From positions 3,410,001 to 3,474,000 of the forward strand of contig NZ_CP097332.1 in assembly GCF_023516435.1 (NCBI RefSeq): a stretch of DNA of 64,000 nucleotides, given 5' to 3'. This DNA comes from Jatrophihabitans telluris. Its GTDB lineage: Bacteria; Actinomycetota; Actinomycetes; Mycobacteriales; Jatrophihabitantaceae. The notes below the pieces were generated by a model. That model was not told the origin of the DNA and made no database searches. It saw only the letters and a program-made list of their open reading frames with translations. The translations under genes and the position numbers were made by a program. Numbering within the stretch: position 1 is the stretch's first letter; each line of letters opens with the position of its first letter. This document shows positions 33,222 through 52,642 of the stretch, piece after piece.

Positions 33222-33318
33222 GACGCAACGAGGGCAACCTCAACGCTCAGGTGACGCAACGAGGGCAACCTCAACGCTCAGGTGACGCAACGAGGGCAAC
33301 CTCAACGCTCAGGTGACG
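33222..33318. repeat. Repeat array A: three 31-bp units of the dispersed GCAACGAGG family
   Basis: The 21-bp core (GCAACGAGGGCAACC then TCAACG) occurs at 33225, 33256 and 33287, each followed by the same 10-bp spacer CTCAGGTGAC. The array lies between convergent xseB and the DUF4245 gene, and the last unit contains the DUF4245 stop codon (33309-33311). Confidence 0.95.
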
Positions 33319-33869
33319 GAGCCGGCGAGTTGAACCAGCTCGGGCTGCGGGGCGGAACCGGTCACGATCACCGTCACCTTGCCCATCACCGCTCGCAACA
33401 GCTGCCGTCCGTCCTGCCGGGTGAAGTTCTGCCAGGCCGAGCTGCGGCCTGACTGTCCGGGGACCGCCACGCTCGGTGGCGTGGACACGGTCAGCGGCCC
33501 GTACTGCGCGGCGACCACGTCAGCGGCGTCGTTGCCCTGCAGTAACTCGGCGTACTTGTCCGAGGGCGAGACCCAGCCGATGTGGAAGCTGGCCCCCACC
33601 GAGTTCGCCGGGGGGACGAACTGGGTCGAGGTCGGCCGCCAGCGGGTTGGCAGCCCCTTCGGAGGCAGGACCGCGAACCCGGCCTGCGTGTCTGCGGAGG
33701 TGATGGCGGCGTTGACGTCGACCACCCGCACTCCGTCGCTGTGACTGCCGTGGGGCCAGGTCACCAGCACCAGAAACCCGACGAGCGCCACGAGCGGAAA
33801 CAGGGACCTCCCCAGGTTGGCGGGGGTACGCAGGCGCTGGCGTTCAGCCGAGGTCAACGGGCGGGTCAC
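33309..33869 (-). CDS. DUF4245 membrane-anchored protein
   Basis: This protein of 186 residues has one N-terminal membrane helix (LFPLVALVGFLVLVTW) and an extracytoplasmic domain with the DUF4245 pattern (PKGLPTRWRPTSTQF, FHIGWVSPSDKYAELLQGN, TRQDGRQLLRAVMG). Function unknown. M. tuberculosis Rv1100, next to glpX, is the same family. GTG 33869 is chosen for a normal N terminus. The last codons and stop fall in repeat array A. Confidence 0.88.
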   Translation of the reverse strand: MTRPLTSAERQRLRTPANLGRSLFPLVALVGFLVLVTWPHGSHSDGVRVVDVNAAITSADTQAGFAVLPPKGLPTRWRPTSTQFVPPANSVGASFHIGWVSPSDKYAELLQGNDAADVVAAQYGPLTVSTPPSVAVPGQSGRSSAWQNFTRQDGRQLLRAVMGKVTVIVTGSAPQPELVQLAGSVT

Positions 33870-33883
33870 CCGTCCATGGTGAC

Positions 33884-34867
33884 CTATTCGGCGATCGCGG
33901 TGGCAGGTGCCTCCGGTCTCAGGCCCTTCTCGCCACTGCCCTGAGTGGAATCCCCGGCCCTTCCGGTCGGCGCCAGATAGAGCACGGCGATGGCCACCAT
34001 CATCAGGGCACCGCCGAGCCAGCCCGTCCAGACAAGCCGTTCTCCGATCAACGCCACGGCCAGCACGGTCGCGGCCAGCGGTTCCAGCAACGTCAGGACC
34101 GAGGCCACCTCCGACGGCGTGGTCCGCAAACCGTGGAAGAACAGACCGTAGGCCAGCGCCGTGGCCACCACTCCCATGTAGGCCAGCGAGGCCACCGTGC
34201 CGGCGTCTGCCGTGAAGGCCAGGCCGGTGAGCACGGCGAACGGTGTGAGCACGAGCGCGCCGACGACACTGGCTACCGTCGTGAGCGCCAGGGGGCCGGC
34301 GACGGAATGCAATCGCTGGCTGACCAGGGTGGAGCCGGCGTAGCCCAAGCCAGAGCCGACCGACTCGACGATCCCCAGCCAGGGCGTTGCGTGGGCTGGG
34401 CCATGACCCGAAGACGTCAGCGAGATCAGGGCCAGGCCCAACAGAGCCAGAGCCAGCACCACGAGGGACCGCGCACCCGGACTGTGTCGCCGGCGCAGCG
34501 ACTGCCACGCCGTGATGCTGACCGGGGCGACACCGAGGCTGACCAGCGTCGACACACTCACCCCGACATTGCCGATCGCGGCGAAGTACAGCGCCTGGTA
34601 CAGGCCCAGCAGCGCTCCGGAAACCAGCAGCGCGAGGCGTTGTCCGGCCGAGGCGCGGCGCCACGCTCGCAGGCTGGGGCGCCCCGCCACGAGCAGGAGA
34701 ACGGCCGAGGAGAAGACGAGGCGGTACCACCCGATGGAGATGGCCGACAGGTGGCTGTGGTCGGCGACCTTGCGGACGAGAAAGCCGTTGGTGCCCCAGA
34801 GGACGGCTCCGAGGCTTACTGCGATCAGCCCTTCACGGGCCCGAAGACGATCGATGGTTGATGACAT
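33884..34867 (-). CDS. EamA family (DMT superfamily) transporter
   Basis: A membrane protein of 327 residues with ten hydrophobic helices in two EamA repeats (LGAVLWGTNGFLVRKVADHS in the first; LAYMGVVATALAYGLFFHGL with SVLTLLEPLAATVLAVALIG in the second). Such proteins export metabolites or amino acids. ATG 34867 (MSSTIDRLRAREG) is preferred over a 35-residue extension. The DUF4245 gene follows 14 bp downstream on the same strand. Confidence 0.9.
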   Translation of the reverse strand: MSSTIDRLRAREGLIAVSLGAVLWGTNGFLVRKVADHSHLSAISIGWYRLVFSSAVLLLVAGRPSLRAWRRASAGQRLALLVSGALLGLYQALYFAAIGNVGVSVSTLVSLGVAPVSITAWQSLRRRHSPGARSLVVLALALLGLALISLTSSGHGPAHATPWLGIVESVGSGLGYAGSTLVSQRLHSVAGPLALTTVASVVGALVLTPFAVLTGLAFTADAGTVASLAYMGVVATALAYGLFFHGLRTTPSEVASVLTLLEPLAATVLAVALIGERLVWTGWLGGALMMVAIAVLYLAPTGRAGDSTQGSGEKGLRPEAPATAIAE

Positions 34868-35236
34868 GCTCACGCGCTTTCGTGCTGGAACCGACGGTGG
34901 AGGCGAAAGCCGGGGCAGCATCGATCGCGAGCCGTCCCCTCGATCGAACGCGATCTGGGCAACGGCGTTCAAGGCCGACTGCGGGTGCCCCGGATCAGCT
35001 GACCGGGGGCGGCAGCACGGTGCCGGTGCGCGAGGACATGGCGCGCACTCTATCGTCCGGTCGAGACCTCACGCGCGTGAGTTTCGCGGTGGAGGCGGCA
35101 TTCTCCAACGAAAGGACCGCCGCCCGGACCGCCGAGACCGCCGAGACCGCCGAGACCGCCCACATCGCCAGGACGACGACGGTGATCATCGTCGCGATCC
35201 AGGGCGTGCCGAACCGCTCAAAGATCGCTGCTTGCG
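34868..35236. other. Intergenic region, about 370 bp, with no convincing gene
   Basis: Holds a short 9-bp tandem repeat (GCCGAGACC, about 35128-35157). A minus-strand frame at 34995-35189 would encode 64 residues beginning MITVVVLAMWAVSAVSAVSA, one membrane helix, 47 bp downstream of the lipoprotein stop, but it has no ribosome-binding site and includes the DNA repeat, so I do not call it. Confidence 0.5.
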
Positions 35237-35944
35237 CTACCGGACGATCACCACGACCGGGTCGCTGACGATCTCGCCACCGTCCGGCACGCCCGGCGCG
35301 GAAGAGGTCTGGCCGGCACCCGGGCCGCCCGTCGCGCTCCCCGCGGCAGCGCCGGCGGCCGCAGAATCAGCACCCGCGGGGCCCGGAGCAGTCGCCATGT
35401 CCGAGGGCAGGACGGTGTAGCGCAGCGACACCACCAGCTCGTACTGGCCGGCGGGCAGGCGGCTTCGCTTTCCAGCCGCGGGACATCCGGACAGCAACAC
35501 AGTTTCGGGCAGCCAGCCGATTCGCTGGCTGTGGCCGGCGCGCAACGGAATCAACGCCGCCAGCTCCGGCCGGGGGCTGTCGTCCCGGCCGACGACGTGG
35601 CCATCGCGGATCAGCAGCACGTCGGTGCTGGAGGGTCCGCTCACCAAGGCTCCGCCCGTGGTGCTGCTGGACAGCGTCGCCGAGATGGCCATCGCAGTGC
35701 CCGCTGCGCCCGAGCCGGGCGTGGACGCGGTCAGCGTGAGGGTCGCCGAGGACCGGCCGGATGACCTGGGGACGTCGCCGCACGTGGTCAGACCGGCTGC
35801 GCCGGAGCCCCGGTTCGGCACGGGCGCCGAGCCACATCCGCAGGCCAGCAACGCGACGAGCACCGGCGCGGCCCACCGCTTCCGCGATGGCCATGGATTC
35901 CAGGTCGGGCGCACAACAGGTGGACGCGACGGGCGGCGCCACAC
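35237..35944 (-). CDS. Putative lipoprotein of unknown function
   Basis: The product is 235 residues. After a basic N terminus, VALLACGCG is a lipobox with Cys at about 35, so the mature protein is probably lipid-anchored outside the membrane. The mature part is Gly/Ala/Ser-rich with a beta-sandwich-like pattern (SSATLTLTASTPGSG, TDVLLIRDGHVVGRDDS, LPAGQYELVVSLRYTV) and a low-complexity Ala/Gly tail. I do not recognise a family. Three TGCGACTT octamers lie directly upstream of GTG 35944. Confidence 0.7.
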   Translation of the reverse strand: MWRRPSRPPVVRPTWNPWPSRKRWAAPVLVALLACGCGSAPVPNRGSGAAGLTTCGDVPRSSGRSSATLTLTASTPGSGAAGTAMAISATLSSSTTGGALVSGPSSTDVLLIRDGHVVGRDDSPRPELAALIPLRAGHSQRIGWLPETVLLSGCPAAGKRSRLPAGQYELVVSLRYTVLPSDMATAPGPAGADSAAAGAAAGSATGGPGAGQTSSAPGVPDGGEIVSDPVVVIVR

Positions 35945-35946
35945 GT

Positions 35947-35984
35947 TGCGACTTCTTACAACTCGCTGCGACTTGTTGCGACTT
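35947..35984. promoter_or_regulatory. Three TGCGACTT octamers spaced 20 and 10 bp
   Basis: Octamers begin at 35947, 35967 and 35977, so they lie on one face of the helix, 3-40 bp upstream of the lipoprotein start. Candidate binding site of an unknown regulator. Confidence 0.4.
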
Positions 35985-36182
35985 GTTGGGACCCAGCCGA
36001 TCCTTATGAAGTGAATGTGATCCGGGCCACAATTTCGAGAAATGCCGACATGCGTCGCCTCAAGCTCCGTCTTTGGCCCTTAACCGTCCAGTAGACAGGG
36101 TGAACGGATGCCGACCCGTGGCCGAAACCCTTTACAGCAGCAGGGCAATCGGGAGCGAAGCGTCGTCGAAACCCGAGGCGGC

Positions 36183-36188
36183 TAGGGT
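36183..36188 (+). promoter_or_regulatory. -10 element (TAGGGT) upstream of glpX
   Basis: Placed 34 nt before the ATG, leaving a short leader that carries the GAAGGGA ribosome-binding site. Confidence 0.35.
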
Positions 36189-36222
36189 TTGCTTCAGCAG
36201 CCGCCGCGACGAAGGGACCACC

Positions 36223-37272
36223 ATGACCGAGTCCGACGCACCCGACAGCGCAGGCCAGGTTCCGCCGGAGCTGGCTGTATCGCGAGAAGCGCCGGACCGC
36301 AACCTCGCCCTCGAACTCGTGCGCGTGACGGAAGCCGCGGCCATGGCCGCCGCTCGATGGGTCGGTCGGGGTGAGAAGAACGACGGCGACGGGGCGGCCG
36401 TCGACGCGATGCGAACCCTCATCGGCACCGTCTCGATGCGGGGCGTCGTGGTGATCGGCGAAGGCGAGAAGGACCAGGCGCCGATGCTGTTCAACGGCGA
36501 ACACGTCGGCAACGGCACCGGCCCCGAATGCGACGTCGCGGTCGACCCGATCGACGGAACCACGCTGATGGCCAAGGGAATGCCCAACGCGATCGCGGTG
36601 ATCGCGGTCGCCGAGCGCGGTTCCATGTTCGACCCGTCGGCGGTGTTCTACATGGAGAAGATCGCGACCGGCCCCGAGGCGGCCAACGTCATCGACATCA
36701 ACGCCCCGGTTGCCACCAACATCGCTCGCGTGGCCAAGGCGAAGGGCGGACGTCCCTCCGATGTCACCGTCGTGGTGCTTGACCGACCCCGCCACGCGGA
36801 CCTTGTGCGCGCGGTCCGCGACGCCGGAGCGCGCATCAAATTCATCTCCGACGGCGACGTGGCCGGCGCGATCATGGCCGCTCGGCCCGGCACCGGGGTC
36901 GACCTGCTCCTCGGTATCGGCGGCACCCCGGAGGGGATCATCGCCGCAGCGGCGATCGCCTGCATGGGCGGCTCCATCCAGGCCAAGCTGTGGCCACGAG
37001 ACGAGTCCGAGCAAACCAAGGCCCTCGACGCCGGTCACGACCTGGATCGGGTGCTGCACACCAGCGACCTCGTCCGCGGCGAAGACGTGTTCTTCTGCGC
37101 TACCGGCATCACCGACGGCGAGCTCGTGCGAGGAGTCCGCTACGACCGCGGCGCCGTGGCGACGTCCTCGATCGTGATGCGCTCGAAGTCGGGGACGATT
37201 CGGCAAGTCGATTCGTTGCACCAGCTGTCGAAGTTGCGCGCTTATTCTTCGATCGACTTCGATCGCAACTGA
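36223..37272 (+). CDS. glpX: Class II fructose-1,6-bisphosphatase
   Basis: A phosphatase of 349 residues of the GlpX family, the only gluconeogenic FBPase in M. tuberculosis (Rv1099c). The metal and phosphate site is visible as [29 protein letters not shown] and DGDVAGAI, and [19 protein letters not shown] is the family signature. ATG 36223 has AAGGGA 6 nt upstream. It is followed by a YbjQ-like gene and fumC on the same strand. Confidence 0.96.
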
Positions 37273-37306
37273 TCGGCACCGCCGTCCCGACCCGCAGGAG
37301 AACGAA

Positions 37307-37861
37307 ATGCTCTGTGTCACGTCAAACGACATCCCCGGCTGGGAGATCCAGCGCGTCTGCGGCGAGGTCTTCGGGGTGACCGTCCGCTCCCGCAACATCG
37401 GCTCCCAGCTCGGCGCCGGATTCAAGTCCTTGGTCGGCGGCGAGCTGCAGGGAATGACCAAGCAGGTCATCGAGTCACGCAACGAAGCGATGGGCCGGCT
37501 GTTCGCCGAGGCGCAGGCCCGCGGTGGCAACGCCCTGGTGGCTATGCGCTTCGACACCACAGAACTCGGCGGCAACTGGAGCGAGATCTGCGCCTACGGG
37601 ACCGCGGTCGTGGCCATTCCGGTCACCGAGGAAGCCAAGCAGACGGCCATCCAGCTCGGGTACGGCCGTCCCGCCCACAATGCCGCGCCCGCGAGCCCGC
37701 AGTCGTCCGAACCCGCCGTCGGGGGCGCGCCGGGGGCGTATCCGGCTCAGCCCGGCGGTTACCCCGGTCAGCCCCAGGGATACCCGGGCCAGCCGCAGGG
37801 CTTGCCCACCCAGTCGCAGGGCCAGCCCGCCGAGCCGCAGGGGTACTCGCCGCAGTCGTAA
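37307..37861 (+). CDS. YbjQ/DUF74 family protein with Pro/Gln-rich tail
   Basis: This protein of 184 residues has an N-terminal YbjQ-like domain (about 1-110: [55 protein letters not shown]), a pentameric fold with uncertain function, sometimes called heavy-metal binding. Residues about 130-184 are YPGQPQG-type repeats, unusual for the family and probably disordered. ATG 37307 follows a GGAG sequence. It lies 34 bp after glpX and may share its transcript. Confidence 0.85.
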
Positions 37862-38019
37862 CGGCGTCCGGACGTGCCGTAAGGATCGCCACAGGATGGG
37901 GTTCTCCACGGTGGGTGCTGGCTAGGCTGGCTGTTTGCCGGGCTGCCGCCTGGGTCGAAATGCAAACGCACGCCGAACAGCCGAGCCGCCGCTCGCTGAT
38001 CAAGGAGAGCTTGAAAATC

Positions 38020-39438
38020 ATGTCGGTTGACCAGTCAGCGTTCCGGGTCGAGAAGGACTCGATGGGTGAGGTCCGGGTGCCGGCCGCCGCCAAGTGGCGC
38101 GCCCAGACCCAGCGCGCCGTGGAGAACTTCCCGATCTCGGGGCAACCGATCGAGCGCGAGTTGATCGCGGGTTTGGCGCTGATTAAGGGCGCCGGCGCCC
38201 GGGTGCGCGCTCAGCGCGGCCTGCTCGATCCGGGGAAGGCCGAGGCCATCGCTGCCGCGGCGGTCGAGGTCGCTCGCGGCGAGTGGGACGAGCAGTTCCC
38301 GATCGACGTCTTCCAGACCGGCTCGGGCACGTCCTCGAACATGAACACCAACGAGGTGCTCGCCTCGTTGGCAGCCGACCGGCTCTCCGCCGCGGCCGGC
38401 GAAGCGGTCTCGGTTCATCCAAACGACGACGTCAACGACCCGCTGTCGTCCAACGACCAGTTCCCCTCGGCCATTCACGTCGCGGCGACCAAGGCCGTGG
38501 TCGTGGACCTGGTCCCCGCCCTGCAACACCTGGCCGCGGCGCTGGAGGCCAAGTCGTCCGAATTCGCTACCGTCGTCAAGTCGGGCCGTACGCACCTGAT
38601 GGACGCGACCCCGGTGACCCTCGGCCAGGAGTTCTCCGGTTATGCCGCGGCGGTGCGCTACGGCGTGGAACGACTGCAGAGCACCCTGCCGCGCGTGGCC
38701 GAACTACCGCTGGGCGGCACGGCGGTCGGCACCGGAATCAACGCCCCGGCCGGTTTCGCCGGTGAGGTCATCGCGCTCATCGCCGCGGAGACCGGCCTGC
38801 CCTTCACCGAGGCTCGCGACCACTTCGAGGCGCAGGGGGCGCGCGACGGGCTCGTCGAGTTGTCCGGTGCGCTGCGCACGATCGCCGTCAGTCTGAACAA
38901 GATCGCCAACGACATTCGGTGGATGGGTTCGGGCCCCCGCACCGGCCTCACCGAACTGTTCCTGCCCGATCTCCAGCCGGGATCGTCGATCATGCCGGGC
39001 AAGGTCAATCCGGTGCTGTGCGAGGCGGTCTGCCAGGTCGTGGCGCAGGTCATCGGCAACGATGCCGCCGTGGCGTGGGGTGGCGCGGCGGGCAACTTCG
39101 AGCTCAACGTGATGCTGCCGGTGATCGCGCGCAACGTCCTGGAATCGGTCCGCCTGATCGGCAACGTGTCCCGCGTGTTCGCCGACCGGTGCGTGTCCGG
39201 TTTGCAAGCCAACGTCGAACGGTGCCGTGAGTACGCCGAGTCCTCGCCCTCCATCGTGACCCCGCTGAATCACTACGTGGGATACGACGAGGCGGCCAAG
39301 ATCGCCAAGCAGGCCCTGGCCGAGCGCAAGACGATCCGGCAGGTCGTGATCGAGCGTGGCCACGTCGAGTCCGGCGCGATCACCGAGGACAAGCTGGACG
39401 AGGTCCTCGACGTGCTGTCAATGACCCACCCCCGTTGA
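38020..39438 (+). CDS. fumC: Class II fumarate hydratase
   Basis: A TCA-cycle enzyme of 472 residues that interconverts fumarate and malate. Motifs: [31 protein letters not shown] and the superfamily signature [12 protein letters not shown] with the catalytic serine. ATG 38020 has AAGGAG about 10 nt upstream; the open frame upstream to 37915 is not needed. The last codons, Arg then the TGA stop, are bases of the first unit of repeat array B, so the repeat defines the C terminus. Confidence 0.96.
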
Positions 39439-39515
39439 GGTTGCCCTTGTTGCCGGCCGGCGGCCGTTGAGGTTGCCCTCGTTGCCGGCCGACGGCCGTT
39501 GAGGTTGCCCTCGTG
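39433..39515. repeat. Repeat array B: three units, 32-bp period, inverted relative to A
   Basis: Cores start at 39433, 39465 and 39497 (minus-strand reading GCAAC-RAGGG-CAACC-TCAACG); the third is truncated. Spacers are CGGCCGGCGGC and CGGCCGACGGC. Located between convergent fumC and the PhoH-like gene; the first unit contains the fumC stop. Confidence 0.95.
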
Positions 39516-39524
39516 GCTCAGGAC

Positions 39525-40943
39525 TCAGCCCAGGCCGACGTCCTCGAGCATTTCGGTGACGAGAGCGGCGATCGGCGAACGCTCCGAGCGGGTCAACGTG
39601 ACGTGGGCGAACAGCGGGTGACCCCGCAGCGCCTCGATCACGGCAGCGACACCGTCGTGCCGGCCGACGCGCAGATTGTCCCGCTGGGCGACGTCATGGG
39701 TGAGCACGACCCGCGAACCCTGGCCGATGCGCGAGAGCACCGTCAGCAGCACGTTTCGCTCCAAGGACTGGGCCTCGTCCACGATGACGAAAGCATCGTG
39801 CAGGGACCGTCCCCGGATGTGGGTCAGGGGCAGGACTTCGACCATCCCGCGGTCCATGATCTCGTCCATCACGTCCGCGCTCACCAACGCGCCCAGCGTG
39901 TCGAAAACCGCCTGCGCCCAAGGGGCCATCTTCTCGTTCTCGCTGCCCGGCAGGTAACCGAGTTCCTGACCACCGACGGCATACAGCGGGCGGAAGACGA
40001 CTACCTTCTTGTGCGCCCGCCGTTCCATGACTGCTTCCAGGCCGGCACACAGCGCCAGCGCGGACTTGCCGGTGCCGGCCCGTCCGCCCAGGGAGACGAT
40101 GCCGATCTCGGGGTCCAGCAACAGGTCCAGGGCGATCCGCTGTTCGGCCGACCGGCCATGCAAGCCGAAGGCCTCCCGGTCACCGCGGACGAGCTTCATT
40201 TGCTTGTCCGCCGTCACCCGAGCCAGTGCCGATCCACGCGGGGAGTGCAGGACGAGACCGGTATGGCAGGGCAGTTCAGCACTCGTCCGAAGCTCGTCGT
40301 GCTGAGCCAGATCGACTTCGTGACCGTCGTAGAGAGCATCGATCTGGTCGGCGGTCACGTCCAGTTCGGCCAGGCCCGTCCACCCGGAATCGACCGCCGG
40401 ATGGACCCGGTACTCGTCGGCGTCGAGGCCGACCGAGGCCGCTTTCACCCGCAGCGGCATGTCCTTGGTGACCAAGGTGACGTCGCGGCCCTCGTTCTTC
40501 AGGTTGAGGGCCACGGCCAGGATCCGCGAGTCGTTGGTCTCGACACGGAATCCGGTCGGCAGCGAGGACAGGTCGGAGTGGTTCAGCTCAACGTGCAAGG
40601 TGCCGCCGTCGTCCCCGATCGGGACGGGCGCATCCAGGCGTCCGTGTTTGATGCGGAGCTCATCGAGGGTTCGCAAGGTCTGGCGGGCGAACCAGCCGAG
40701 CTCGGGGTGGTGGCGTTTGCCTTCCAGCTCCCCGATGACCACCAGCGGCAGGACGACCTGGTGCTCACCGAACCGCGCCAGGGCACCTGGGTCCGACAGC
40801 AGGACCGACGTATCGAGCACGAACGTCTTCATGTGGTCTTGATCGGCGGCAGTCGCGGAAATGTGATTGCTCGCGGGAAGCTGATCCTTCAGGTCAGCAG
40901 AGGCGGGTACTGAGCTGGGGTGGGCAGATGTCTCGGAACGCAC
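39525..40943 (-). CDS. phoH2: PIN-PhoH fusion protein (PhoH2-like RNA helicase/RNase)
   Basis: A protein of 472 residues: an N-terminal PIN domain (about 38-160, [34 protein letters not shown]) and a C-terminal PhoH P-loop ATPase ([33 protein letters not shown]). In mycobacteria PhoH2 unwinds and cuts RNA. GTG 40943 is chosen because AAGGAG lies 6 nt upstream, giving a 37-residue extension before the PIN domain; ATG 40832 is possible. I see no clear upstream antitoxin gene like mycobacterial phoAT. Confidence 0.93.
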
Positions 40944-40983
40944 TCGAGGCTCCTTGGACGTTCACGGTAGGCACAGACCTCAT

Positions 40984-40998
40984 CACCCACCGTGGGTG
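40984..40998. promoter_or_regulatory. 15-bp inverted repeat upstream of phoH2
   Basis: CACCCAC, one central base, GTGGGTG: perfect 7-bp arms, 41 bp before the phoH2 start. Possible operator. Confidence 0.35.
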
Positions 40999-41252
40999 GG
41001 CGCGGCACCGACGTCCACCTGCATTGAGGGTTCCGGTCGCTCCCAGAAGCTGGGGGCGATGCCGGCCCCCTCGCTGGTCATTACCAAAGTCAGGGACCTC
41101 CCGGGCGGCTCGGGGTTTCCCGGTCCACCTGTCGTCACGGTACGTCCGCTCGTGATCCAGTACGAACGCCACGCCGACATTCTCAGTTTCCAACAGATGA
41201 ACATCAGTCGCACCGGTCCCATGCGGGCCTGGCGCTCTCGGCGCTCGGCCGG

Positions 41253-41347
41253 CGTTGAGGTTGCCCTCGTTGCGGGGTCGGCCCCGTTGAGGTTGCCCTC
41301 GTTGCGGGGTCGGCCCCGTTGAGGTTGCCCTCGTTGCGGGGTCGGGC
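41253..41347. repeat. Repeat array C: three units, 32-bp period
   Basis: Cores at 41253, 41285 and 41317 in the same orientation as array B, spacer GGGGTCGGCCC after each. The array begins 7 bp beyond the stop of the minus-strand nuclease gene. Confidence 0.95.
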
Positions 41348-41353
41348 AGTGTT

Positions 41354-42412
41354 TCACCATAAGAATCGGCGCCCATCCTGACTGATCACCGAGGTTCCCG
41401 ACCGCGGGCGGCGCGCAGAAGCTTCGGTGCGCCAGCGGCGCTCCACCAGCAGACGCGCCGCCTCGACGCCACCGCCCCGCATCAGATCGCGCGTCACGCG
41501 AACGGTGGTGAAGCCGAGCCGTTCGAGTTTCCCGATCCGGCGCAGATCCGCACGTGGACGGTCACCGCGTTCGTGCCACTCGCCGTCATATTCTCCGACG
41601 AGGCCCGACACCGGATCGAGCAGGTCCACCCGCGCAACGAAATTCCCAAAACTGTCGAATATCGAGGGGTTTACGAGTGGTTGTCGCAAACCCGCATCGA
41701 GCCAGTGCAGCCGGAAAGCACTTTCCATCGGCGATTCCGCAAACGCCGTCAGCAGTGGAGCAAGCGCACGTACCCGACGAATTCCCGGCCAGCGTTTGCG
41801 TTTGCTCGCGTAACTCGTCAGCTCGTCCGGGCTGCTGACACCGAATCGCACACACGCGTCTGCGAGCTGCAGTGCCTGGACCCGCCCTCGGCTGAGGCGG
41901 AGTACATCGAATAGCGTCCGCGTGCCTGTAGACACCGACAGGCCGCCAATTTGGACGACGTCAGAATCGAGCAGCTGAGAGTAGCTGCGCAGGATTCCCT
42001 CTCTTTGCCGACACTTGGTCCTCGGATTGATCGCCACGGGCAACAACTCGTCCTCCTCCCAACGGCCATCGACAAATGTCGTGGGTACACCGTGGAGGAG
42101 CGCGGCCGACCATCCGATGACGACTGCGCGCGGCCCGGACACGGCGCAGCCGGCAGCGATCCGAACAAATGCGTCTGCGCAGTCCGGTTCCCCGACCAGC
42201 GATCGGCTCGCGCGGATCCCGCCAGGTCGCGGCATCGACCTCACTTCGGCAGGAGGGCAACCCGCGGCGAGCAATCTGGAACGGGTCGTGACGCCGGCGG
42301 AGAGGATCTTGGCGGTGGGGTCGTCGTGGTTGATCACAGCCGCAGCGTCCCGCGGAGCGAGCCAGCTGCGAGGGGCGATCGTGATTCTGTGGATGACGAG
42401 GTTTTTATCCAC
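41354..42412 (-). CDS. DUF559/Vsr-like endonuclease domain protein with AbiEi-like N terminus
   Basis: The product is about 352 residues. The N-terminal half (GVTTRSRLLAAGCPPAEVRS, VIGWSAALLHGVPT) resembles the winged-helix region of AbiEi/type IV antitoxin-like proteins. The C-terminal half has a PD-(D/E)xK nuclease pattern: ESAFRLHWLDAGL, FVARVDLLDP, GEYDGEWHERGDRPRADLRR, LGFTTVRVTRD. Such proteins are abundant in actinobacteria and their role is unknown. Repeat arrays flank it on both sides (C after the stop, D at the 5' end). GTG 42412 is used; a TTG at 42436 would place the start inside the repeat. Confidence 0.72.
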   Translation of the reverse strand: MDKNLVIHRITIAPRSWLAPRDAAAVINHDDPTAKILSAGVTTRSRLLAAGCPPAEVRSMPRPGGIRASRSLVGEPDCADAFVRIAAGCAVSGPRAVVIGWSAALLHGVPTTFVDGRWEEDELLPVAINPRTKCRQREGILRSYSQLLDSDVVQIGGLSVSTGTRTLFDVLRLSRGRVQALQLADACVRFGVSSPDELTSYASKRKRWPGIRRVRALAPLLTAFAESPMESAFRLHWLDAGLRQPLVNPSIFDSFGNFVARVDLLDPVSGLVGEYDGEWHERGDRPRADLRRIGKLERLGFTTVRVTRDLMRGGGVEAARLLVERRWRTEASARRPRSGTSVISQDGRRFLW

Positions 42413-42414
42413 AG
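42387..42414. promoter_or_regulatory. 8-bp inverted repeat containing a perfect DnaA-box sequence
   Basis: CTGTGGAT and ATCCACAG are separated by 12 bp. TTATCCACA (42405-42413) equals the consensus DnaA box. It covers the nuclease start and abuts array D. A single box does not make an origin. Confidence 0.4.
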
Positions 42415-42417
42415 CCC

Positions 42418-42598
42418 GCAACAAGGGCAACCTCAACGAGCCGAAGCCCGCAACAAGGGCAACCTCAACGAACCACAGCCCGCAACAAGGGCAACCTCAA
42501 CGAACCACAGCCCGCAACAAGGGCAACCTCAACGAACCACAGCCCGCAACAAGGGCAACCTCAACGAGCCGAAGCCCGCAACAAGGGCAACCTCAACG
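42418..42598. repeat. Repeat array D: six units, exact 32-bp period
   Basis: Cores at 42418, 42450, 42482, 42514, 42546 and 42578, all the A-variant (GCAACAAGGG...). Spacers are AGCCGAAGCCC, AACCACAGCCC (three times), AGCCGAAGCCC. It lies between the nuclease and isoprenyl synthase genes. Confidence 0.96.
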
Positions 42599-42615
42599 AG
42601 AGCGGGGGGCAGCGG

Positions 42616-43383
42616 TCAGGCGCCGAAACGGCGCTGGCGCTCGGAGAAATCGCGCAGGGCCCGAAGAAAGTCGACCTTGCGGAAATCGGGCCACAGGGCA
42701 TCGCAGAAGTAGAACTCCGAATGCGCCGACTGCCACAGCAGGAAGCCGGACAGGCGCTGCTCCCCCGACGTCCGGATCACGAGGTCGGGATCGGGCTGGC
42801 CCTTGGTGTACAGGTGGTCGGCGATGTGCTCGACGTCGATGCTCTCGGCCAGCTCCTCGATGGACGTGCCGGCCTGGGCCTGCTCCTGCAGCAGCGACCG
42901 GACAGCGTCGGCGATCTCGCGGCGGCCGCCGTAGCCCACGGCCAGATTCACCGTCAGCCCGGTCTTGTCGGCCGAGCGTTCCTCCGCGGCCTTCAACACG
43001 CCGGCGGTATCAGCCGGCAGCAGATCCAGCGCACCGACGACGTTCACCCGCCACCGGCGATCGTCGGCCGACAGCTGGCCGGCGACGTTCTCGATGATCT
43101 TCAGCAACGGCACGAGCTCGGCCGGGTCCCGAGTGAGGTTGTCCGTCGAGAGCAGCCACAGCGTGACGTGCTCGACGCCCACCTCGGCGCACCACTCGAG
43201 CAGCTGATCGATCAGCTCAGCGCCGGCGGCATGCCCGTCGTTGACGTCGGACAGGCCGGCCGCCCGGGCCCAGCGTCGGTTGCCGTCCAACATCACCGCG
43301 ACGTGGCGCGGGACCGCAGCGCCGTTCAGACTCTGGCGCAGCCGCCGCTCGTACACGGAGTAGATGGCGCTGCGCAGGTCCAC
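42616..43383 (-). CDS. Cis-prenyltransferase (short-chain Z-isoprenyl diphosphate synthase type)
   Basis: A UppS-family enzyme of 255 residues: [20 protein letters not shown] holds the catalytic Asp, followed by [37 protein letters not shown] and the C-terminal [20 protein letters not shown]. It condenses IPP onto an allylic diphosphate, supplying polyprenyl carriers. M. tuberculosis Rv1086 (Z-farnesyl synthase) sits in the same region; chain length here cannot be read. GTG 43383 has TAACCT 8 nt upstream. It is divergent from accD. Confidence 0.92.
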
Positions 43384-43391
43384 GACAGGAA

Positions 43392-43488: not shown

Positions 43489-43496
43489 CAGCCGAC

Positions 43497-45098
<1,602 letters not shown>

Positions 45099-45144
45099 CA
45101 CTCGGGCCACCCCGCCCACGTCCGCAGAATCGACTGAAAGCCTT

Positions 45145-46711: not shown

Positions 46712-46822
46712 GAGACCACTCTGGCAGGACGAACCCGGCGATGCGACCCGGGCCGCCGCGCCGCGGTCGGAGTTCCTTGCCCTGTAAGGGTCCTGGACCC
46801 TGTTTGACCGCACACTGTGGGT

Positions 46823-48522: not shown

Positions 48523-49112
48523 TCGACGGCGTCGAGCCCGGCGGTGGTGGCCCGGTCGACGAGCACATCCACCGACACCCTCGCCCAACCGAACTCCGGG
48601 CCCACCGGCCGGCCGGCTTCGGCGAAGCGAACCACGAGCACTTCATCGGTGCCCGGCTCTGCGGTGCTGGCCTCGACGATCACGCTGCCCTGCAAGGCCA
48701 TCAGCCGTCGCACGCGGCCGAGCAGACCGGTGACATCGCCGCCGATCCCGATGTTGCCGTCCAGCAGGAGGACTGTCGGCCACCGACCCTCGCCGGGAAC
48801 CCGTTCGAAGACATCACGGCTCAGGGCGGTCGCTCCACGTCCCTGCGTGAGTTCCACCGCCGCCTCGGCAATGTCCACTCCGAGCGCGGCATGACCCGCT
48901 GCGGCAAGGGCGTACACGATTCGACCCGGGCCGCAGCCGACATCCAGAGTCGGTCCCAGACACCGGTCGAGCACCGTCTGATCAGCATCATCGGCCTCAG
49001 CCAGGTAACGCTGGATAGCCAGCGGAAGAACCCGACCGTGGCCATCGATGAATCCCAGCGGACGCGATCCGGCCAGCGCCCCCTCGTACGGCGCAAGGGC
49101 GCCCGCCCTCAC
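48462..49112 (-). CDS. Class I SAM-dependent methyltransferase
   Basis: The product is 216 residues with the SAM-binding motif LDVGCGPGRIVYALAAAGHA, then GVDIAEAAVEL, and post-motif WPTVLLLDGNIGIGGDVTGL. The N terminus FIDGHGRVLPLAIQRYLAEA fits the sub-group found next to TIGR04282 glycosyltransferases. GTG 49112 overlaps the upstream stop by 4 nt (GTGA), so the three genes GT2, TIGR04282-GT and methyltransferase are translationally coupled. Substrate unknown, perhaps a glycolipid or carrier. Confidence 0.85.
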   Translation of the reverse strand: MRAGALAPYEGALAGSRPLGFIDGHGRVLPLAIQRYLAEADDADQTVLDRCLGPTLDVGCGPGRIVYALAAAGHAALGVDIAEAAVELTQGRGATALSRDVFERVPGEGRWPTVLLLDGNIGIGGDVTGLLGRVRRLMALQGSVIVEASTAEPGTDEVLVVRFAEAGRPVGPEFGWARVSVDVLVDRATTAGLDAVDYWSAGGRDFVRFERSTSMA

Positions 49113-49891
49113 TGGGCGGCACCGGTCTGGGCGGCACCGGTCGAGCTGCCGGCCAACGCGCGCCAGCGGCGAGCGAAGCGGGTATGCGGATGACCCAGTG
49201 CGATCGCCCGTGCATCCGCGGGCTCGTCCACGTCGCGTAGCACCGGCAGCCGTTGAACGCGCAGGCCCGCCTGACGCAGCCGACACAACTGCTCGGCACC
49301 GGTGTCCGGTCGCGACATCGGTACGCCCGCGATGACCGAGCGGGCCACGCTCGCATCGGCGAAGGCGATGGCCCAGAAGCCACCGTCCTCGGCCAGGCCC
49401 AGCGCGCAATCGTGGTTTCGCAGGTCGAGTCGATCCAGCTCACCGGACAGCTGCGGGGTATCCATCCCCACCAGGACCACGCGCCCCGGGGCGACGTGGC
49501 GGGTGGAACCGTAGGGCCCGGCGTTCCAGCCGGCGGCGATCGCGTCGAAGCCGGCGGACAACCGCTCATCGAGATCGCCCTGCGATTGCTGGAGGATCTG
49601 CCAACCGGTGGGGATCCACTCGCCGGGATCGCCGTCGAGCAGCAGCACCCGGCGCGGCGCCAGACCATCAACCGCGGCCAAAGTGTCGTTCAGCGCCTCG
49701 CCCGCCAGCTCAGCAGCCTCGTGCGGACTGAACTCACCGATGAGGCGGGTTTTCACCTTGCCCGGCAACGGTTGTTTGGCGATGACGACAACCGTGTCGG
49801 CCACCGGTGTCCGCTGAACGACCGCGGGACCGGCGCCGATGACGGCTGCGGTCATCGAGCCGGTCATCGAGCCGGTCATCGAGCCGGTCAT
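49109..49891 (-). CDS. TIGR04282/DUF2064-type glycosyltransferase (nucleotidyltransferase fold)
   Basis: This protein of 260 residues has a GT-A-like core: VVVIAKQPLPGKVKTRLIGE near 35, RVLLLDGDPGEW, VLVGMDTPQLSGELDRLDL and GLAEDGGFWAIAFADA, the DUF2064 pattern. Relatives are annotated as arsenosugar-type glycosyltransferases or CofC-like enzymes. The N terminus is MTGS three times then MTAAV, from a 12-bp DNA repeat, so there are four in-frame ATG starts; the first overlaps the GT2 stop (ATGA). Confidence 0.82.
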   Translation of the reverse strand: MTGSMTGSMTGSMTAAVIGAGPAVVQRTPVADTVVVIAKQPLPGKVKTRLIGEFSPHEAAELAGEALNDTLAAVDGLAPRRVLLLDGDPGEWIPTGWQILQQSQGDLDERLSAGFDAIAAGWNAGPYGSTRHVAPGRVVLVGMDTPQLSGELDRLDLRNHDCALGLAEDGGFWAIAFADASVARSVIAGVPMSRPDTGAEQLCRLRQAGLRVQRLPVLRDVDEPADARAIALGHPHTRFARRWRALAGSSTGAAQTGAAQ

Positions 49892-49898
49892 CGAGCCA
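49851..49898 (-). repeat. 12-bp tandem repeat spanning a gene junction and four start codons
   Basis: Four units GTCATCGAGCCG (plus strand; the last with one change). On the minus strand each carries ATG and TGA, so the repeat ends the GT2 gene and opens the next one. Confidence 0.92.
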
Positions 49899-50535
49899 TC
49901 ACCGCGGACATGTCCTTGACCGCCTGCAGGGTGCCGCGAACCGTGCCGGTCACCTTGGAGCGTCCCGTCCGCGGGGCGTAGTGGACGTCGACGGAGTCGA
50001 TCCGCCAGCCGGCACGGGCGGCCAGCAGCACGGTCTCCAAAGGGTAGCCACTGCGCCGATCGCGTTGTCCGAGCTCGAGCAGGTCCTCCCGTCGAGCTAC
50101 CCGCAGCGGTCCGAGGTCGCGAATGCGCACGCCGGTCAGAGACCGGACCCGATGCGCCAGCACCCGGTTGGCCACCCGGGCATGGACCGGCCAGGCCGAA
50201 AGGGTCGTCGTCCGGCGGGCCCCGAGGACGAGGTCGTAACGGCCTTCGATGATCGGCGCGGCCAGGCGCGGGACATCGGCGGGGTCCAGCGATCCGTCGC
50301 AGTCACAGAAGGCCACATACTCAGCGGTGGCCGCCGACAAACCGGCGTGGCAGGCCGCACCGTAACCGCGCTGCGCACAGCTCACGACGCTCGCGCCGAG
50401 CCGGGCGGCCAGCTCCGCGCTACCGTCGGCGCTGCCGTTGTCGACGACGATGGGCCGGACGCCGGCCGGCACCCGCTCCAGCACGCCGGGCAGCGCGGCC
50501 GCCTCGTCCAGACAAGGCAGAACCAAGTCGATCAT
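49888..50535 (-). CDS. Family 2 glycosyltransferase (DPM1/DolP-like)
   Basis: The product is 215 residues: MIDLVLPCLDEAAALPGVLE, VVDNGSADGSAELAARLGAS, CDCDGSLDPADVPRLAAPI (DxD-like site) and LGPLRVARREDLLELG. Such enzymes make polyprenyl-phosphate sugars, which could feed the GT87 enzyme encoded nearby. ATG 50535 is chosen over 50568 because TACCGT lies 7 nt upstream and the protein then begins like its family. The stop lies in the 12-bp repeat. Confidence 0.88.
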   Translation of the reverse strand: MIDLVLPCLDEAAALPGVLERVPAGVRPIVVDNGSADGSAELAARLGASVVSCAQRGYGAACHAGLSAATAEYVAFCDCDGSLDPADVPRLAAPIIEGRYDLVLGARRTTTLSAWPVHARVANRVLAHRVRSLTGVRIRDLGPLRVARREDLLELGQRDRRSGYPLETVLLAARAGWRIDSVDVHYAPRTGRSKVTGTVRGTLQAVKDMSAVMAR

Positions 50536-50542
50536 GCCCTTG

Positions 50543-50548
50543 ACGGTA
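50543..50548 (-). promoter_or_regulatory. -10 element (TACCGT) of GT2 gene
   Basis: Seven nucleotides before ATG 50535; leaderless arrangement. Confidence 0.5.
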
Positions 50549-50625
50549 GTCAGCGGAGGGTCCGACAACCCTTACAGAGCTGGGAACTCGGGCTCCGCGA
50601 CGGCTGGTATCACCAACGCGAAGCC

Positions 50626-50631
50626 TAGACT
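50626..50631 (+). promoter_or_regulatory. -10 element (TAGACT) of response regulator
   Basis: Six nucleotides before GTG 50638. Confidence 0.5.
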
Positions 50632-50637
50632 CCAGGG

Positions 50638-51345
50638 GTGGCCGCTGTGCTCGTCGTCGAGGACGACCCAACCGTGTCCGAGGTCGTGCTGTCCTACCTG
50701 GAACGCGCAGGTCACACCGCCCACGGCTGCAGCGACGGCACCCGCGCCGCGGAACTGCTCAGCGGCCCGGATGCAGGTGCCATCGACCTGGTCGTGCTCG
50801 ACCTGATGCTTCCGGGGCTGGACGGGCTCGAGGTGTGCCGCCGGCTGCGCCGCAGTCACCCGGACCTTCCCGTGATCATGCTGACCGCGCTCGGCGAGGA
50901 GGACGACCGGATCGCCGGCCTGGAGGTTGGCGCCGACGACTACGTGACCAAGCCGTTCTCCCCGCGAGAACTCGTCCTGCGGGTGGACTCGGTGTTGCGG
51001 CGCAGCGCACCGGCTGCGGCTTCCGACCCTGCCCCCGCCATCCTCAGCATCGACGACCTCGTGGTCGACACCGCCGCACACCGGGTGACGAAGAAGGGCG
51101 TGGAGCTCAATCTGACCGTCCGAGAGCTTGAACTGCTCGCGTTCCTGATGCGCAACGCCGGTACCGCCTTCACCCGTAGCCAGCTGATGGAAGCGGTCTG
51201 GGGATGGACCTTCGGCGATCAGTCGACGGTCACCGTGCACGTGCGGCGGGTCCGGGAGAAGATCGAGAACGACCCGCAGAAGCCGACGTTGATCCAAACC
51301 GTGTGGGGAGTCGGCTACCGGATGGACGCACCGGACGCGGCATGA
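50638..51345 (+). CDS. OmpR/PhoB-type response regulator
   Basis: A regulator of 235 residues: receiver domain with acidic pair VVEDD, phosphoacceptor Asp in LVVLDLMLPGLDG and Lys in YVTKPFSPREL; C-terminal winged helix with TVRELELLAFLMRNAGTAFT, VHVRRVREKI and TVWGVGYRM. It overlaps the kinase gene by 4 nt (ATGA). GTG 50638 has a leaderless -10. The target genes cannot be identified; the divergent glycosyltransferase operon is a candidate. Confidence 0.95.
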   Translation: MAAVLVVEDDPTVSEVVLSYLERAGHTAHGCSDGTRAAELLSGPDAGAIDLVVLDLMLPGLDGLEVCRRLRRSHPDLPVIMLTALGEEDDRIAGLEVGADDYVTKPFSPRELVLRVDSVLRRSAPAAASDPAPAILSIDDLVVDTAAHRVTKKGVELNLTVRELELLAFLMRNAGTAFTRSQLMEAVWGWTFGDQSTVTVHVRRVREKIENDPQKPTLIQTVWGVGYRMDAPDAA

Positions 51346-52496
51346 GCACACACCACGATCTCGACATCCTGCTCACGGCGTTGCTGTGGGCTCTGGGGGG
51401 CGCCGCCGTCGCCTGGATCCTGACCTGGCCGTTACGGCGCCGCTCCCAACGGGGTGAGCTGATCTCGGTCTCCGTGGTGGCTACCGGGGCTTCGGTCGCC
51501 GCCGTCATCGGAAACACCCGCGCGATGTTCCTGTCGATGGACGACGAGTACGCCACCATCACGGTTTCGCTCGTCGCGGGCGTCCTCGCCGCCATGGTGG
51601 CCAGCATGTCGGCACGCCGCTTCGCCCGGGACAAGCGCAGTGTCCAAGCCGCGGTAGAGGCGATTCGGGAAGGACGATTGCCCACCGGTGGCGGCCGAAA
51701 GCTCAGTGGTGAGCTGCAGACGTTGCGCGAGCAGCTGGACTCCACCGCCCGTACCCTCACCGAATCCCGTGAGCGCGAGCAGGCCCTGGAAGCCTCCCGG
51801 CGCGAGTTGGTCGCCTGGGTCTCTCATGACCTGCGGACTCCGCTGGCCGGCCTGCGGGCGATGGCCGAGGCGCTCGAAGACGGCGTGGCGAGCTCGCCCG
51901 AGCGGTACCACAAGCAGATCCGGATCGAGGTCGACCGGCTGTCGGGGATGGTCGACGACCTCTTGGAGATTTCCCGGCTGCAATCGCGGGCGCCGCGTGC
52001 CCGCACCGATCGGGTCAACCTGGAGGACCTGATCTCTGACGTGGTCGCTGCGGTGGAGCCGGTAGCCACGCTGCAGGGTGTGAAGCTGCGAGGTCGGACG
52101 TCCACGCTCGCCGAAGTGATCGGTAGCTCCGCGGAGCTGAACCGCGCGCTCACGAATCTGCTCGTCAATGCCATCAGGCACACCGGCCCCGACGGCACGG
52201 TGGAGATATCGCTGCGTTCACCGAACGAATCCGGCGCGACTCCGGCGTTGGCGCAGGTGGCCGAACTCATCGTGCGGGACCAGTGTGGCGGCATTCCCGA
52301 GCATGATCTGGACAAGGTGTTCGAGGTCGGCTTCCGGGGCGAGCCCGCTCGCACGCCGCATTCCGGCCTGGGCGCGGGCGCCGGACTCGGGCTGGCCATC
52401 ACCCGCGGCATCGTGGCCGCACACGACGGCAGCGTTCAGGTCTGCAACACCGAGGGCGGCTGCGCGTTCACCGTCCGCCTGCCCCTGGCTGCCTGA
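51342..52496 (+). CDS. Sensor histidine kinase
   Basis: The kinase is 384 residues. Three N-terminal helices (about 8-110) with almost no extracytoplasmic domain suggest sensing in or near the membrane. A HAMP-like linker and coiled coil (115-175) are followed by the H-box WVSHDLRTPLAGLR, N-box NRALTNLLVNAIRHT, G1 VRDQCGGIP and G2 GAGAGLGLAITRG. It should phosphorylate the coupled response regulator. A long palindrome of the dispersed repeat family begins 6 bp after the stop. Confidence 0.94.
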   Translation: MSTHHDLDILLTALLWALGGAAVAWILTWPLRRRSQRGELISVSVVATGASVAAVIGNTRAMFLSMDDEYATITVSLVAGVLAAMVASMSARRFARDKRSVQAAVEAIREGRLPTGGGRKLSGELQTLREQLDSTARTLTESREREQALEASRRELVAWVSHDLRTPLAGLRAMAEALEDGVASSPERYHKQIRIEVDRLSGMVDDLLEISRLQSRAPRARTDRVNLEDLISDVVAAVEPVATLQGVKLRGRTSTLAEVIGSSAELNRALTNLLVNAIRHTGPDGTVEISLRSPNESGATPALAQVAELIVRDQCGGIPEHDLDKVFEVGFRGEPARTPHSGLGAGAGLGLAITRGIVAAHDGSVQVCNTEGGCAFTVRLPLAA

Positions 52497-52502
52497 CCTC
52501 CT

Positions 52503-52546
52503 CGTTGAGGTTGCCCTCGTTGCGTGCAACGAGGGCAACCTCAACG
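52503..52546. terminator. Long palindrome after the kinase gene
   Basis: Perfect 21-bp stem with a 2-nt loop, made of two facing repeat cores, between convergent kinase and epimerase genes. No U-run; may end or protect transcripts from both sides. Confidence 0.5.
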
Positions 52547-52642
52547 TCCCACCACGCGCAACGAGGGCAACCTCAACGTCCCACCACGCGCAACAAGGGC
52601 AACCTCAACGTCCCACCACGCGCAACAAGGGCAACCTCAACG
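52503..52642. repeat. Repeat array E: one inverted plus four direct units, 32-bp period
   Basis: An inverted core (52503-52523) and a direct core (52526-52546) are perfect reverse complements around GT, giving a 44-bp palindrome. Further direct cores start at 52558, 52590 and 52622 with spacer TCCCACCACGC. The last core contains the stop of the minus-strand epimerase gene (52637-52639). Confidence 0.96.

Follow-up and report, generated by a model that had tools for sequence, protein, structure and literature searches.

The spread and growth of short extragenic repeats are incompletely understood. Tandem intergenic repeats occur in actinobacteria as VNTR/MIRU minisatellites, and sequence is linked to replication direction in polar signals such as KOPS and Ter. 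The kind closest to the repeats described here is REP/BIME. In PMC3733652, REP units are short, extragenic and present in hundreds, form head-to-head dimers and sit between convergent or unidirectional genes (some within genes), with conv-REPs mostly less than 20 bp from gene 3' ends; each unit is an imperfect palindrome, its stem measuring 5-13 bp in GTAG REPs and 8-9 bp in CGTC REPs, and the latter also occur without a dedicated transposase. PMC4679880 describes TAACTGA direct repeats in Beggiatoaceae, where a 7-bp unit forms many intergenic direct-repeat sets in one lineage.

Here we describe, in Jatrophihabitans telluris, a lineage-specific repeat family that by extrapolation comprises about 110 arrays, almost all intergenic, with a unit length that is nearly constant over 87 sites. 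Among the matches listed in open PMC literature the family is undescribed. It makes the growth step of an extragenic repeat visible, since many arrays hold a copy of their own flank.

Repeat loci in the window and across the genome

The window, that is, the whole 64-kb stretch of DNA that was analysed, contains five repeat loci (Table 1). All 20 copies of the core GCAACRAGGGCAACC claimed in the preliminary description were located there, 19 of them exact, over the full 21-mer as well, and one with a single mismatch; shuffled sequence gave a mean of 0.27 copies and at most three. The claimed periods, 31 bp at 33.2 kb and 32 bp at the remaining four loci, likewise hold, and as neither is a multiple of 3, a coding explanation of the window repeats is ruled out. 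Both orientations occur, the 52.5-kb locus combining one reverse with four forward units, and linkers are almost invariant inside each locus, unlike from locus to locus.

Table 1. Repeat arrays and the associated palindrome in the window
Feature	Position	Strand	Description
Array 1	33225..33317	+	three cores, period 31, linker CTCAGGTGAC
Array 2	39433..39517	-	three cores, period 32
Array 3	41253..41337	-	three cores, period 32
Array 4	42418..42598	+	six cores, period 32, all A-form (lagging-sense)
Array 5, reverse unit	52503..52523	-	head-to-head partner across 2-bp centre GT
Array 5, four forward units	52526..52642	+	period 32, linker TCCCACCACGC
44-bp palindrome (centre excepted)	52503..52546	.	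formed by head-to-head cores of array 5

Array 1 fills the gap between a gene ending at 33211, xseB-like on our own reading, and a convergent gene (33309-33869). Array 2 fills the convergent gap between a fumarase gene (37960-39438), whose stop codon is supplied by a core, and a gene that we take to be PhoH-like (39525-40832); at this site two congeners have no array and instead carry an unrelated inverted repeat, the alignment being judged by eye. Array 3 forms the left edge of a segment of about 1.5 kb that is missing from three congeners, the core 3' end of array 4 points at the 3' end of a prenyltransferase gene (42616-43383), and the last core of array 5 provides the stop codon of a predicted gene (52637-53668). 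The palindrome of array 5 folds as RNA at -38.2 kcal/mol (z -10).

No core lies elsewhere in the window, yet the window is not special, as the family is contig-wide. A genome-wide search bore out the proposal of a dispersed family, with 560 copies of the 21-mer at three or fewer mismatches in the 4.19-Mb contig and 328 exact 15-mers of the core; restriction to the five loci, or a place in conserved coding sequence, either of which would speak against dispersal, was looked for and neither was found. Sixty evenly spaced 20-kb stretches held 32 arrays in 1.2 Mb, which extrapolates to about 112 per genome, and 20 further stretches held nine in 0.384 Mb, extrapolating to about 98. Altogether 87 arrays were read (78 plus a hold-out set of nine), by extrapolation about three quarters of the family.

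Among 397 genomes drawn from the order, tandem cores were found in J. telluris only. In 373 kb of sequence from two congeners, surveyed for k-mers and tandem repeats, no equivalent high-copy family came to light, and most array gaps are too diverged in congeners for an empty site to show. Single 29- and 32-bp tandem repeats were present in the surveyed congener sequence.

An origin from phages or plasmids was rejected, viral, phage and plasmid matches being all coding or absent. The viral-contig scan gave three matches, each to the same coding sequence (QQGQPQQGQP) in contigs rich in AT (GC 0.37-0.38), the match in L069 lying inside a 723-aa ORF that resembles a portal gene; phage records searched for the core gave no match, and the two plasmid records with hits (73% and 70% identity) have them beneath annotated coding genes.

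Architecture, growth in place and position at gene ends

Arrays contain 2-13 motif copies, and single cores were seen neither among the 78 arrays nor among the nine hold-out arrays. The 21-bp core exists as first described, but the conserved unit is nearer 24 bp, because C-S-M precedes the core: the consensus starts with CSMGCAAC and ends with TCAACG. The motif, C-S-M-GCAACRAGGGCAACSTCAACG, is spaced by three helical turns, with core spacings of 31-33 bp in 288 of 289 intervals and an intervening linker of 10-12 bp that is repeated within an array (similarity 87% within arrays vs. 39% between arrays). Core variants are mixed within single arrays. Strand switches are all head-to-head ('-+'; 42 of 42 in the 78 arrays, 44 of 44 in all 87), and 36 of the 78 arrays have none. 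Most head-to-head centres fall into two length classes one helical turn apart, 2 bp in 26 of 42 and 12-14 bp in 11, the other five having other lengths.

When we required a match at 9 of 11 bases, flanks rebuilt the linker in 17 of 36 testable blocks, as against 1.7% of shuffled pairings, while 19 had no such match; in array 4, 10 of 11 bases agree between flank ATCCACAGCCC and linker AACCACAGCCC. Roughly half of the testable blocks therefore have a linker copied from neighbouring DNA, so that a unit of about 32 bp was copied in tandem and in place, and to this extent the suggested local amplification with locus-specific linkers is borne out.

The description of the repeats as intergenic was nearly right: two of 78 arrays lie inside predicted genes, and some gene ends overlap a core, a predicted gene extending 6 bases into it, with the core TGA as its stop, in 18 of 120 blocks. 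Arrays are preferentially sited at gene 3' ends, with the core 3' end preferring the stop-codon side. Convergent gaps hold 38 of the 78 arrays, and the core 3' side faces a gene 3' end in 87 of 120 blocks, 74 of them within 24 bp. As 82 of 120 blocks do so with the 5' side too, support for the orientation rule comes from codirectional gaps, where 111 units have the preferred orientation vs. 47 (30%) the opposite one (by array, 21 vs. seven, with one tie). The presence of arrays does not go with shorter codirectional gaps (residual median 122 vs. 46 bp, p 0.10), whereas it does with shorter convergent ones.

Such placement raises the possibility, which we regard as real though rather improbable, that these are selfish, REP/MITE-like, non-autonomous mobile repeats without host function, tolerated at gene ends where insertion does least harm. 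Only nine of the 78 arrays occupy divergent (promoter) gaps, though these make up about 30% of intergenic bases, the family is present in one sampled genome of the order, and head-to-head pairs and closeness to stop codons recall REPs as portrayed in PMC3733652. However, a mobile unit would not bring linkers copied from each site, singletons are lacking, and constraint on the core inside locally made arrays (see below) is unexpected for dead copies. A search of the whole genome with the Y1 (RAYT) transposase profile PF01797, which detected five of 14 controls, gave no match.

Genes beside 11 arrays (nine in divergent gaps, two intragenic) were inspected by eye for a candidate regulator; two neighbours seem to us to resemble DNA-binding regulators, one TetR-like (L073) and one a helix-turn-helix protein (L094). 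Separately, about 2.4 kb from an array lies the sole RVT_1 match, a retron-type reverse transcriptase (G000, 534608-535258), at whose locus three core-like matches occur at three mismatches, a number reached in 11 of 200 shuffles.

Conservation and folding of the core

Variation within arrays is 4-7 times lower in the core than in the linker. Adjacent units diverge at 2.8% per site over the core, or 1.6% if positions 1, 6 and 15 are set aside, compared with 11.2% at linker positions 1-8. Since similarity was a condition of detection, these figures somewhat overstate how well the core is conserved. The core (18 positions) is intact in 89% of 111 sense and 74% of 47 antisense units, and in 87% of 52 divergent-gap and 82% of 193 convergent-gap units. 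As it is also conserved in units that are not sense to a transcript, a DNA-binding site is favoured; the lower conservation of antisense units (p 0.02) leaves room for an RNA role. The early suggestion of a DNA-level role is supported, the core being kept whatever the direction of transcription and most centres falling into two classes one turn apart.

The hairpin argument needs amending. On the core strand the A form does, as said, break the mini-hairpin at its final pair. On the opposite strand a G.U pair is kept, and of the 158 codirectional-gap units 111 have that opposite strand as their sense strand. A conserved hairpin is more tellingly opposed by the C15-to-G variant, through which 55 of 409 units lose an intact stem. 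Of the 4-bp contiguous stem on the core strand, the outer pair can be formed by 54% of the 409 units and pair 8-15 by 86%, and wobble pairs can be added on the other strand. Single cores fold at -2.4 to -6.2 kcal/mol, of which the G form on the core strand folds better than shuffles (-6.2 kcal/mol, z -3.2) and the remaining three not clearly so. Linker hairpins were rejected (mean z 0.09 over 85 blocks). Rfam gave no matches at gathering score in the 64-kb window and none in two further stretches (L300 and L077).

It is unlikely, in our estimation, that the family is an RNA element, with 3'-UTR arrays acting as terminators or RNA stabilisers and head-to-head palindromes as strong hairpins. Placement and orientation relative to stop codons and the better-kept sense units would fit, as would the inverted repeat of a congener pair at one array site and the 17 two-strand arrays in convergent gaps, which fold at a median of -30.7 kcal/mol vs. 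-17.8 in 90 array-free gaps. Yet folding of the 12 one-strand arrays situated in convergent gaps does not surpass that of shuffles (median -16.0 vs. -17.4), although one of them, at 39.4 kb in the window, reaches -27.0; position 15 breaks the core hairpin, antisense and divergent-gap units are still conserved, and the centre lengths skip 3-11 bp.

Replication strand, proposed mechanism and comparison with known systems

The unconstrained positions carry a replication-strand signature that ends at or near the array edge. Unexpectedly, these free positions (linker 1-8 and R6) track replication direction and switch at dnaA and the terminus; R6 follows the replication strand and does not simply alternate between G and A as had been supposed. 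Linker GC skew is +0.40 in 48 leading-sense and -0.13 in 45 lagging-sense blocks (p 5e-10, in a strand test devised after the data were seen), and pairs from the same array agree with this rule in 12 of 15 cases, with one tie. In contrast, array-free gaps show a skew of 0.014-0.024 and the 3' flanks of arrays have no strand bias. A grid scan over possible origins and termini has as its maximum a plateau containing dnaA and the skew-defined terminus, reached by none of 5000 strand permutations. G and A subfamilies were rejected as the cause, the skew following the replication strand within both types. The hold-out set of nine arrays agreed only in part (linker skew, one-sided p 0.036 with 2 vs. 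7 blocks; R6 blocks, p 0.15, leading-sense R6 being G in three and A in four), and in-array minority changes lack an asymmetry of the kind that would build the signature (C>T vs. G>A, p 1.0; C>G vs. G>C, p 0.08).

Constrained and free positions separate cleanly, the free ones being polarised in the array and not in the adjoining 3' flank. We put at about even the chances that these are arrays of a constrained DNA motif, grown in place and sited at gene ends, that serve as a putative protein site and are copied in a fork-coupled manner. The motif would be the site of a sequence-specific DNA-binding protein packing cooperatively on one DNA face, which may act at the ends of transcription units as a polar roadblock, boundary or nucleoid organiser, as proposed for REP/BIME. 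Copying of units may be coupled to the replication fork, with slippage or a switch of template confined to one template strand; the 32-bp ruler, the strand signature and the lack of singletons would then have a common explanation. More tentatively, and with the odds against it, the family might be fork-driven throughout: a protein-bound or folded motif would make the fork re-copy a fixed stretch of about 32 nt on one template strand, arrays would arise and turn over in place, and unconstrained bases would record replication direction. If this is true, about a thousand linker bases would suffice to point to origin and terminus. That ordinary minisatellites share a core via gene conversion, the strand signature being plain mutational bias, agrees with the tandem structure, in-array homogenisation and mixed core variants, but is very improbable given a near-constant period despite unrelated linkers and a bias missing from 3' flanks and array-free gaps.

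Compared with REP, BIME and REPIN sequences, the family is likewise high-copy, short, extragenic, near gene 3' ends and often head-to-head. In contrast, its core stem is 4 bp where the stem reported in PMC3733652 is longer, it is never single in the stretches read, and it has head-to-tail units, locus-specific linkers and the replication-strand signature; a GTAG/CGTC end tag, looked for in the consensus, is absent, CGTC occurring only inside the C15-to-G variant. Like MITEs, the repeats are short and have an inverted arrangement, with the 44-bp palindrome in many arrays, but 36 of 78 lack a strand switch, and the matches between flank and linker are those expected if a 32-bp unit was copied in tandem. 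On casual inspection neither a target duplication nor a parent transposon was noticed. As first noted, the structure is not that of CRISPR, the 10-12 bp spacers being repeated within an array instead of unique. Unlike VNTR/MIRU loci, all loci here share one core while the rest of the unit is local. KOPS and Ter differ in that copies of our motif are equal on both strands (213 leading-sense vs. 215 lagging-sense units typed A or G at R6), with only the free positions polarised. The TAACTGA repeats, as presented in PMC4679880, similarly form many intergenic sets in one lineage, but the unit here is about 32 bp. The arrays open the relation of fork passage to repeat growth and strand-biased change to direct testing, and provide a ready bait for the putative DNA-binding protein.

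Extent of the repeat family and anatomy of its arrays

With at most two mismatches allowed, GCAACRAGGGCAACC has 20 matches in the window, against a mean of 0.27 in shuffled sequence, and 19 of the 20 copies match the full 21-mer without a mismatch. The five loci of the preliminary description (arrays 1-5, at 33.2, 39.4, 41.25, 42.4 and 52.5 kb) were all reproduced, down to their coordinates, their linkers (the short DNA between cores) and their repeat periods of 31 bp at the first locus and 32 bp at the rest. That description made its dispersed-element view depend on there being loci beyond these five, and the single contig (4,193,897 bp, of which the window occupies 3,410,001-3,474,000) contains the 21-mer 560 times when up to three mismatches are tolerated, as well as 328 exact 15-mers (170 forward and 158 reverse). 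The region at about 1.4-2.8 Mb is array-poor, having 3 of the 32 even-sample arrays in a third of the stretches.

The exact 15-mer is present in 8 of 61 genomes (J. telluris counted), the other seven carrying one each. At up to three mismatches the eight congeners in a genus search of nine genomes show 0-4 matches each, 1.53 Mb from named relatives, in 80 loci, gave four matches, all one sequence, and 0.58 Mb of congener loci gave none. Adjacent core pairs were found, among 397 genomes drawn from the order, in J. telluris alone (330 pairs). A loosened head-to-head form had no match in a scan of GTDB contigs, from which this genome's own records were possibly left out.

Array anatomy was examined in 60 evenly spaced 20-kb stretches, 38 targeted stretches (mostly from match lists) and the window, which replaced the overlapping stretch L058. 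These contain 78 arrays with 409 units, at 2-13 units per array; single-core clusters were absent both from these and from the nine arrays of a hold-out set of 20 stretches read later. Linkers (n = 289) measure 11 bp in 258 cases, 10 bp in 23, 12 bp in seven and 21 bp in one. The 21-bp linker (spacing 42 bp) belongs to an array in coding frame in stretch L009 (see table), where the spacings of 33, 33 and 42 bp are all multiples of three. A second in-gene array, of two units, lies near position 1622 of stretch L093. A further, minor repeated word occurs in stretches L009-L028; it is made up of overlapping 14-mers around AAGTTCGGGCCGCA and has 8-9 copies at 4-5 places over 400 kb.

All 42 strand switches run reverse-then-forward, i.e. 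head-to-head, as do both in the hold-out. Their centres measure 2 bp in 26 cases and 12-14 bp in 11 (13 and 14 bp in the hold-out), two classes about one helical turn apart with none in between; centres of 1, 33, 35, 55 and 64 bp occur once each. Since those near 33-35 and 64 bp could be decayed units, it is the 12-14 bp class that carries the phasing argument. By position-specific composition the motif takes in three more bases 5' of the core, first C, then C or G (S), then A or C (M), and at 2-bp centres its leading C is the end of the partner core.

Features of the window and of other stretches of the genome
Feature	Position	Description
Array in L009	19293-19421 of the stretch	inside coding sequence; reads as repeated ATRATST, frame kept
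Segment at 41.1-42.6 kb	window 41131-42605	one gene (41354-42142), no Pfam match; array at either end
Epimerase-family gene	window 52637-53668	adjoins array 5
12-bp tandem repeat	window 49849-49897	perfect, 4.1 copies, CGGTCATCGAGC
15-bp repeat	window 31385-31529	within predicted gene 30893-31762
Retron-type reverse transcriptase	L300:1279-2586	RVT_1 match at G000:C1:534608-535258 (own genome, contig C1)

Growth in place and the replication-strand signature

Linker identity is 87% within arrays versus 39% between consensus linkers of different blocks. For the 36 blocks with 11-bp linkers and genomic sequence to either side, the linker was compared with the start of the 3' flank joined to the end of the 5' flank. 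At least 9 positions agree in 17 of these blocks, compared with 1.7% of shuffled pairings; the remaining 19 stay below nine. Thus, local copying is established for about half of the blocks, and it is to these that the earlier proposal of local amplification with locus-specific linkers applies. In one array (L099, 2916226) the first bases of the linker duplicate the final codon and the stop codon of the adjoining gene. Unit length is nearly constant, and the breakpoint relative to the core is variable.

The gene dnaA lies at 170.9 kb; the turning points of the cumulative GC skew at third positions fall near 0.15 and 2.1-2.2 Mb. In a replication-strand test designed after the data had been seen, 168 of 207 leading-sense units have G at core position 6, and 138 of 196 lagging-sense units have A there (per block 40 G, 13 A and 6 ties versus 17 G, 40 A and 3 ties; p 1.7e-6). 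Linker GC skew is +0.40 in 48 leading-sense blocks versus -0.13 in 45 lagging-sense blocks (p 5e-10), similarly in G-type and A-type blocks, and the difference recurs when blocks of one and the same array are compared (12 of 15, one tie; p 0.003). By eye it is restricted to linker positions 1-8 and does not extend to positions 9-11, which belong to the motif. No such strand difference is seen in the 3' flank (0.45 vs 0.41, p 0.56) or in array-free gaps (leading-strand skew 0.014-0.024), and the 5' flank has at most a trace (0.01 vs -0.18, p 0.08). A scan of 131 blocks on a 50-kb grid placed the listed maxima at an origin of 0.2-0.25 Mb and a terminus of 2.1-2.3 Mb; the dnaA/skew boundaries score equally, the rotation control peaks at a 0-100 kb shift, and none of 5000 strand permutations reached the maximum.

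Tests fixed in advance were applied to the hold-out, whose nine arrays include one already met as an earlier match. They agree for linker skew (+0.27 in two blocks versus -0.10 in seven, one-sided p 0.036) and for lagging-sense position 6 (23 A, 2 G, 2 T); leading-sense units did not favour G (3 G, 4 A). For position 6 in both senses together, the per-block test gave p 0.15. Unit copying may be linked to the replication fork. One may also consider simple ongoing deamination as the source of the strand signature, but minority changes inside arrays have no strand asymmetry, which counts against it. The birth of an array, slow turnover and selection are all candidate sources of the signature.

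Position relative to genes and constraint on the core

Gap classes from a home-made gene caller place 38 of the 78 arrays in convergent gaps, 29 in codirectional gaps, nine in divergent gaps and two inside genes; convergent gaps hold 14% and divergent gaps 30% of the sampled intergenic bases, the arrays' own bases included. A gene 3' end is faced by the core's 3' side in 87 of 120 blocks and by its 5' side in 82 of 120, both scoring high because in convergent gaps both sides face gene 3' ends. In 74 of those 87 blocks the gene ends at most 24 bp away, and in 18 within the core. In codirectional gaps the core 3' end points toward the upstream gene's stop in 111 units and the opposite way in 47 (by array majority 21 versus 7, one tie). 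In convergent gaps with arrays, the median length not taken up by the array is 9 bp (from 12 gaps in 59 stretches plus the window), or 16 bp when all 38 are counted, as against 42 bp for 169 array-free gaps (p 0.002); no such shortening is seen in codirectional gaps with arrays (122 vs 46 bp, p 0.10).

Per-site divergence between adjacent units is 2.8% in the core, or 1.6% once positions 1, 6 and 15 are set aside, versus 11.2% at linker positions 1-8, a contrast somewhat inflated because detection required core similarity. In codirectional gaps, 89% of sense (n = 111) and 74% of antisense units (n = 47) are perfect at these 18 positions (p 0.02 for the comparison of mismatches); the share is 87% in divergent gaps (n = 52) and 82% in convergent gaps (n = 193). 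The core is thus conserved whatever the transcription, which favours its being a DNA recognition motif, judging from sequence; arrays would then be bound by a cooperative DNA-binding protein. The preliminary description likewise preferred a DNA-level role to an RNA stem. The hairpin is indeed not conserved, pair 7-14 being broken in 57 of 409 units, but the G-form core strand by itself folds at -6.2 kcal/mol (z -3.2), which counts against this.

Window loci in congeners and known systems

No array was found at any of seven matching congener positions (1-3 congeners each), nor any core in those loci. At 39.4 kb, where the J. telluris fumarase gene takes its stop from the TGA of the core, two congeners carry an inverted repeat at the site of array 2 (seen by eye); the protein at 39525-40832 has its best-matching named relative in a Jatrophihabitans MAG (86% identity). 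The segment at 41.1-42.6 kb is absent from three congeners, in which the aligned flanks lie about 90-120 bp apart, and two congeners lack the epimerase-family gene in the corresponding interval; neither locus is therefore a clean empty site.

The sole RVT_1 match in the genome, classed by PADLOC as RT_other / RT_outgroup, is a reverse transcriptase of the retron type. The array at 532,147 lies about 2.4 kb from it, and the locus of the reverse transcriptase contains core-like matches at roughly the number expected by chance. Compared with REP elements, as far as the portions of PMC3733652 consulted describe them, the family differs in tag, stem and linkers, and from GTAG REPs also in the transposase, and for these reasons we do not file it as REP, although it resembles these elements in copy number, head-to-head pairing, closeness to gene 3' ends and placement in convergent gaps (PMC3733652).
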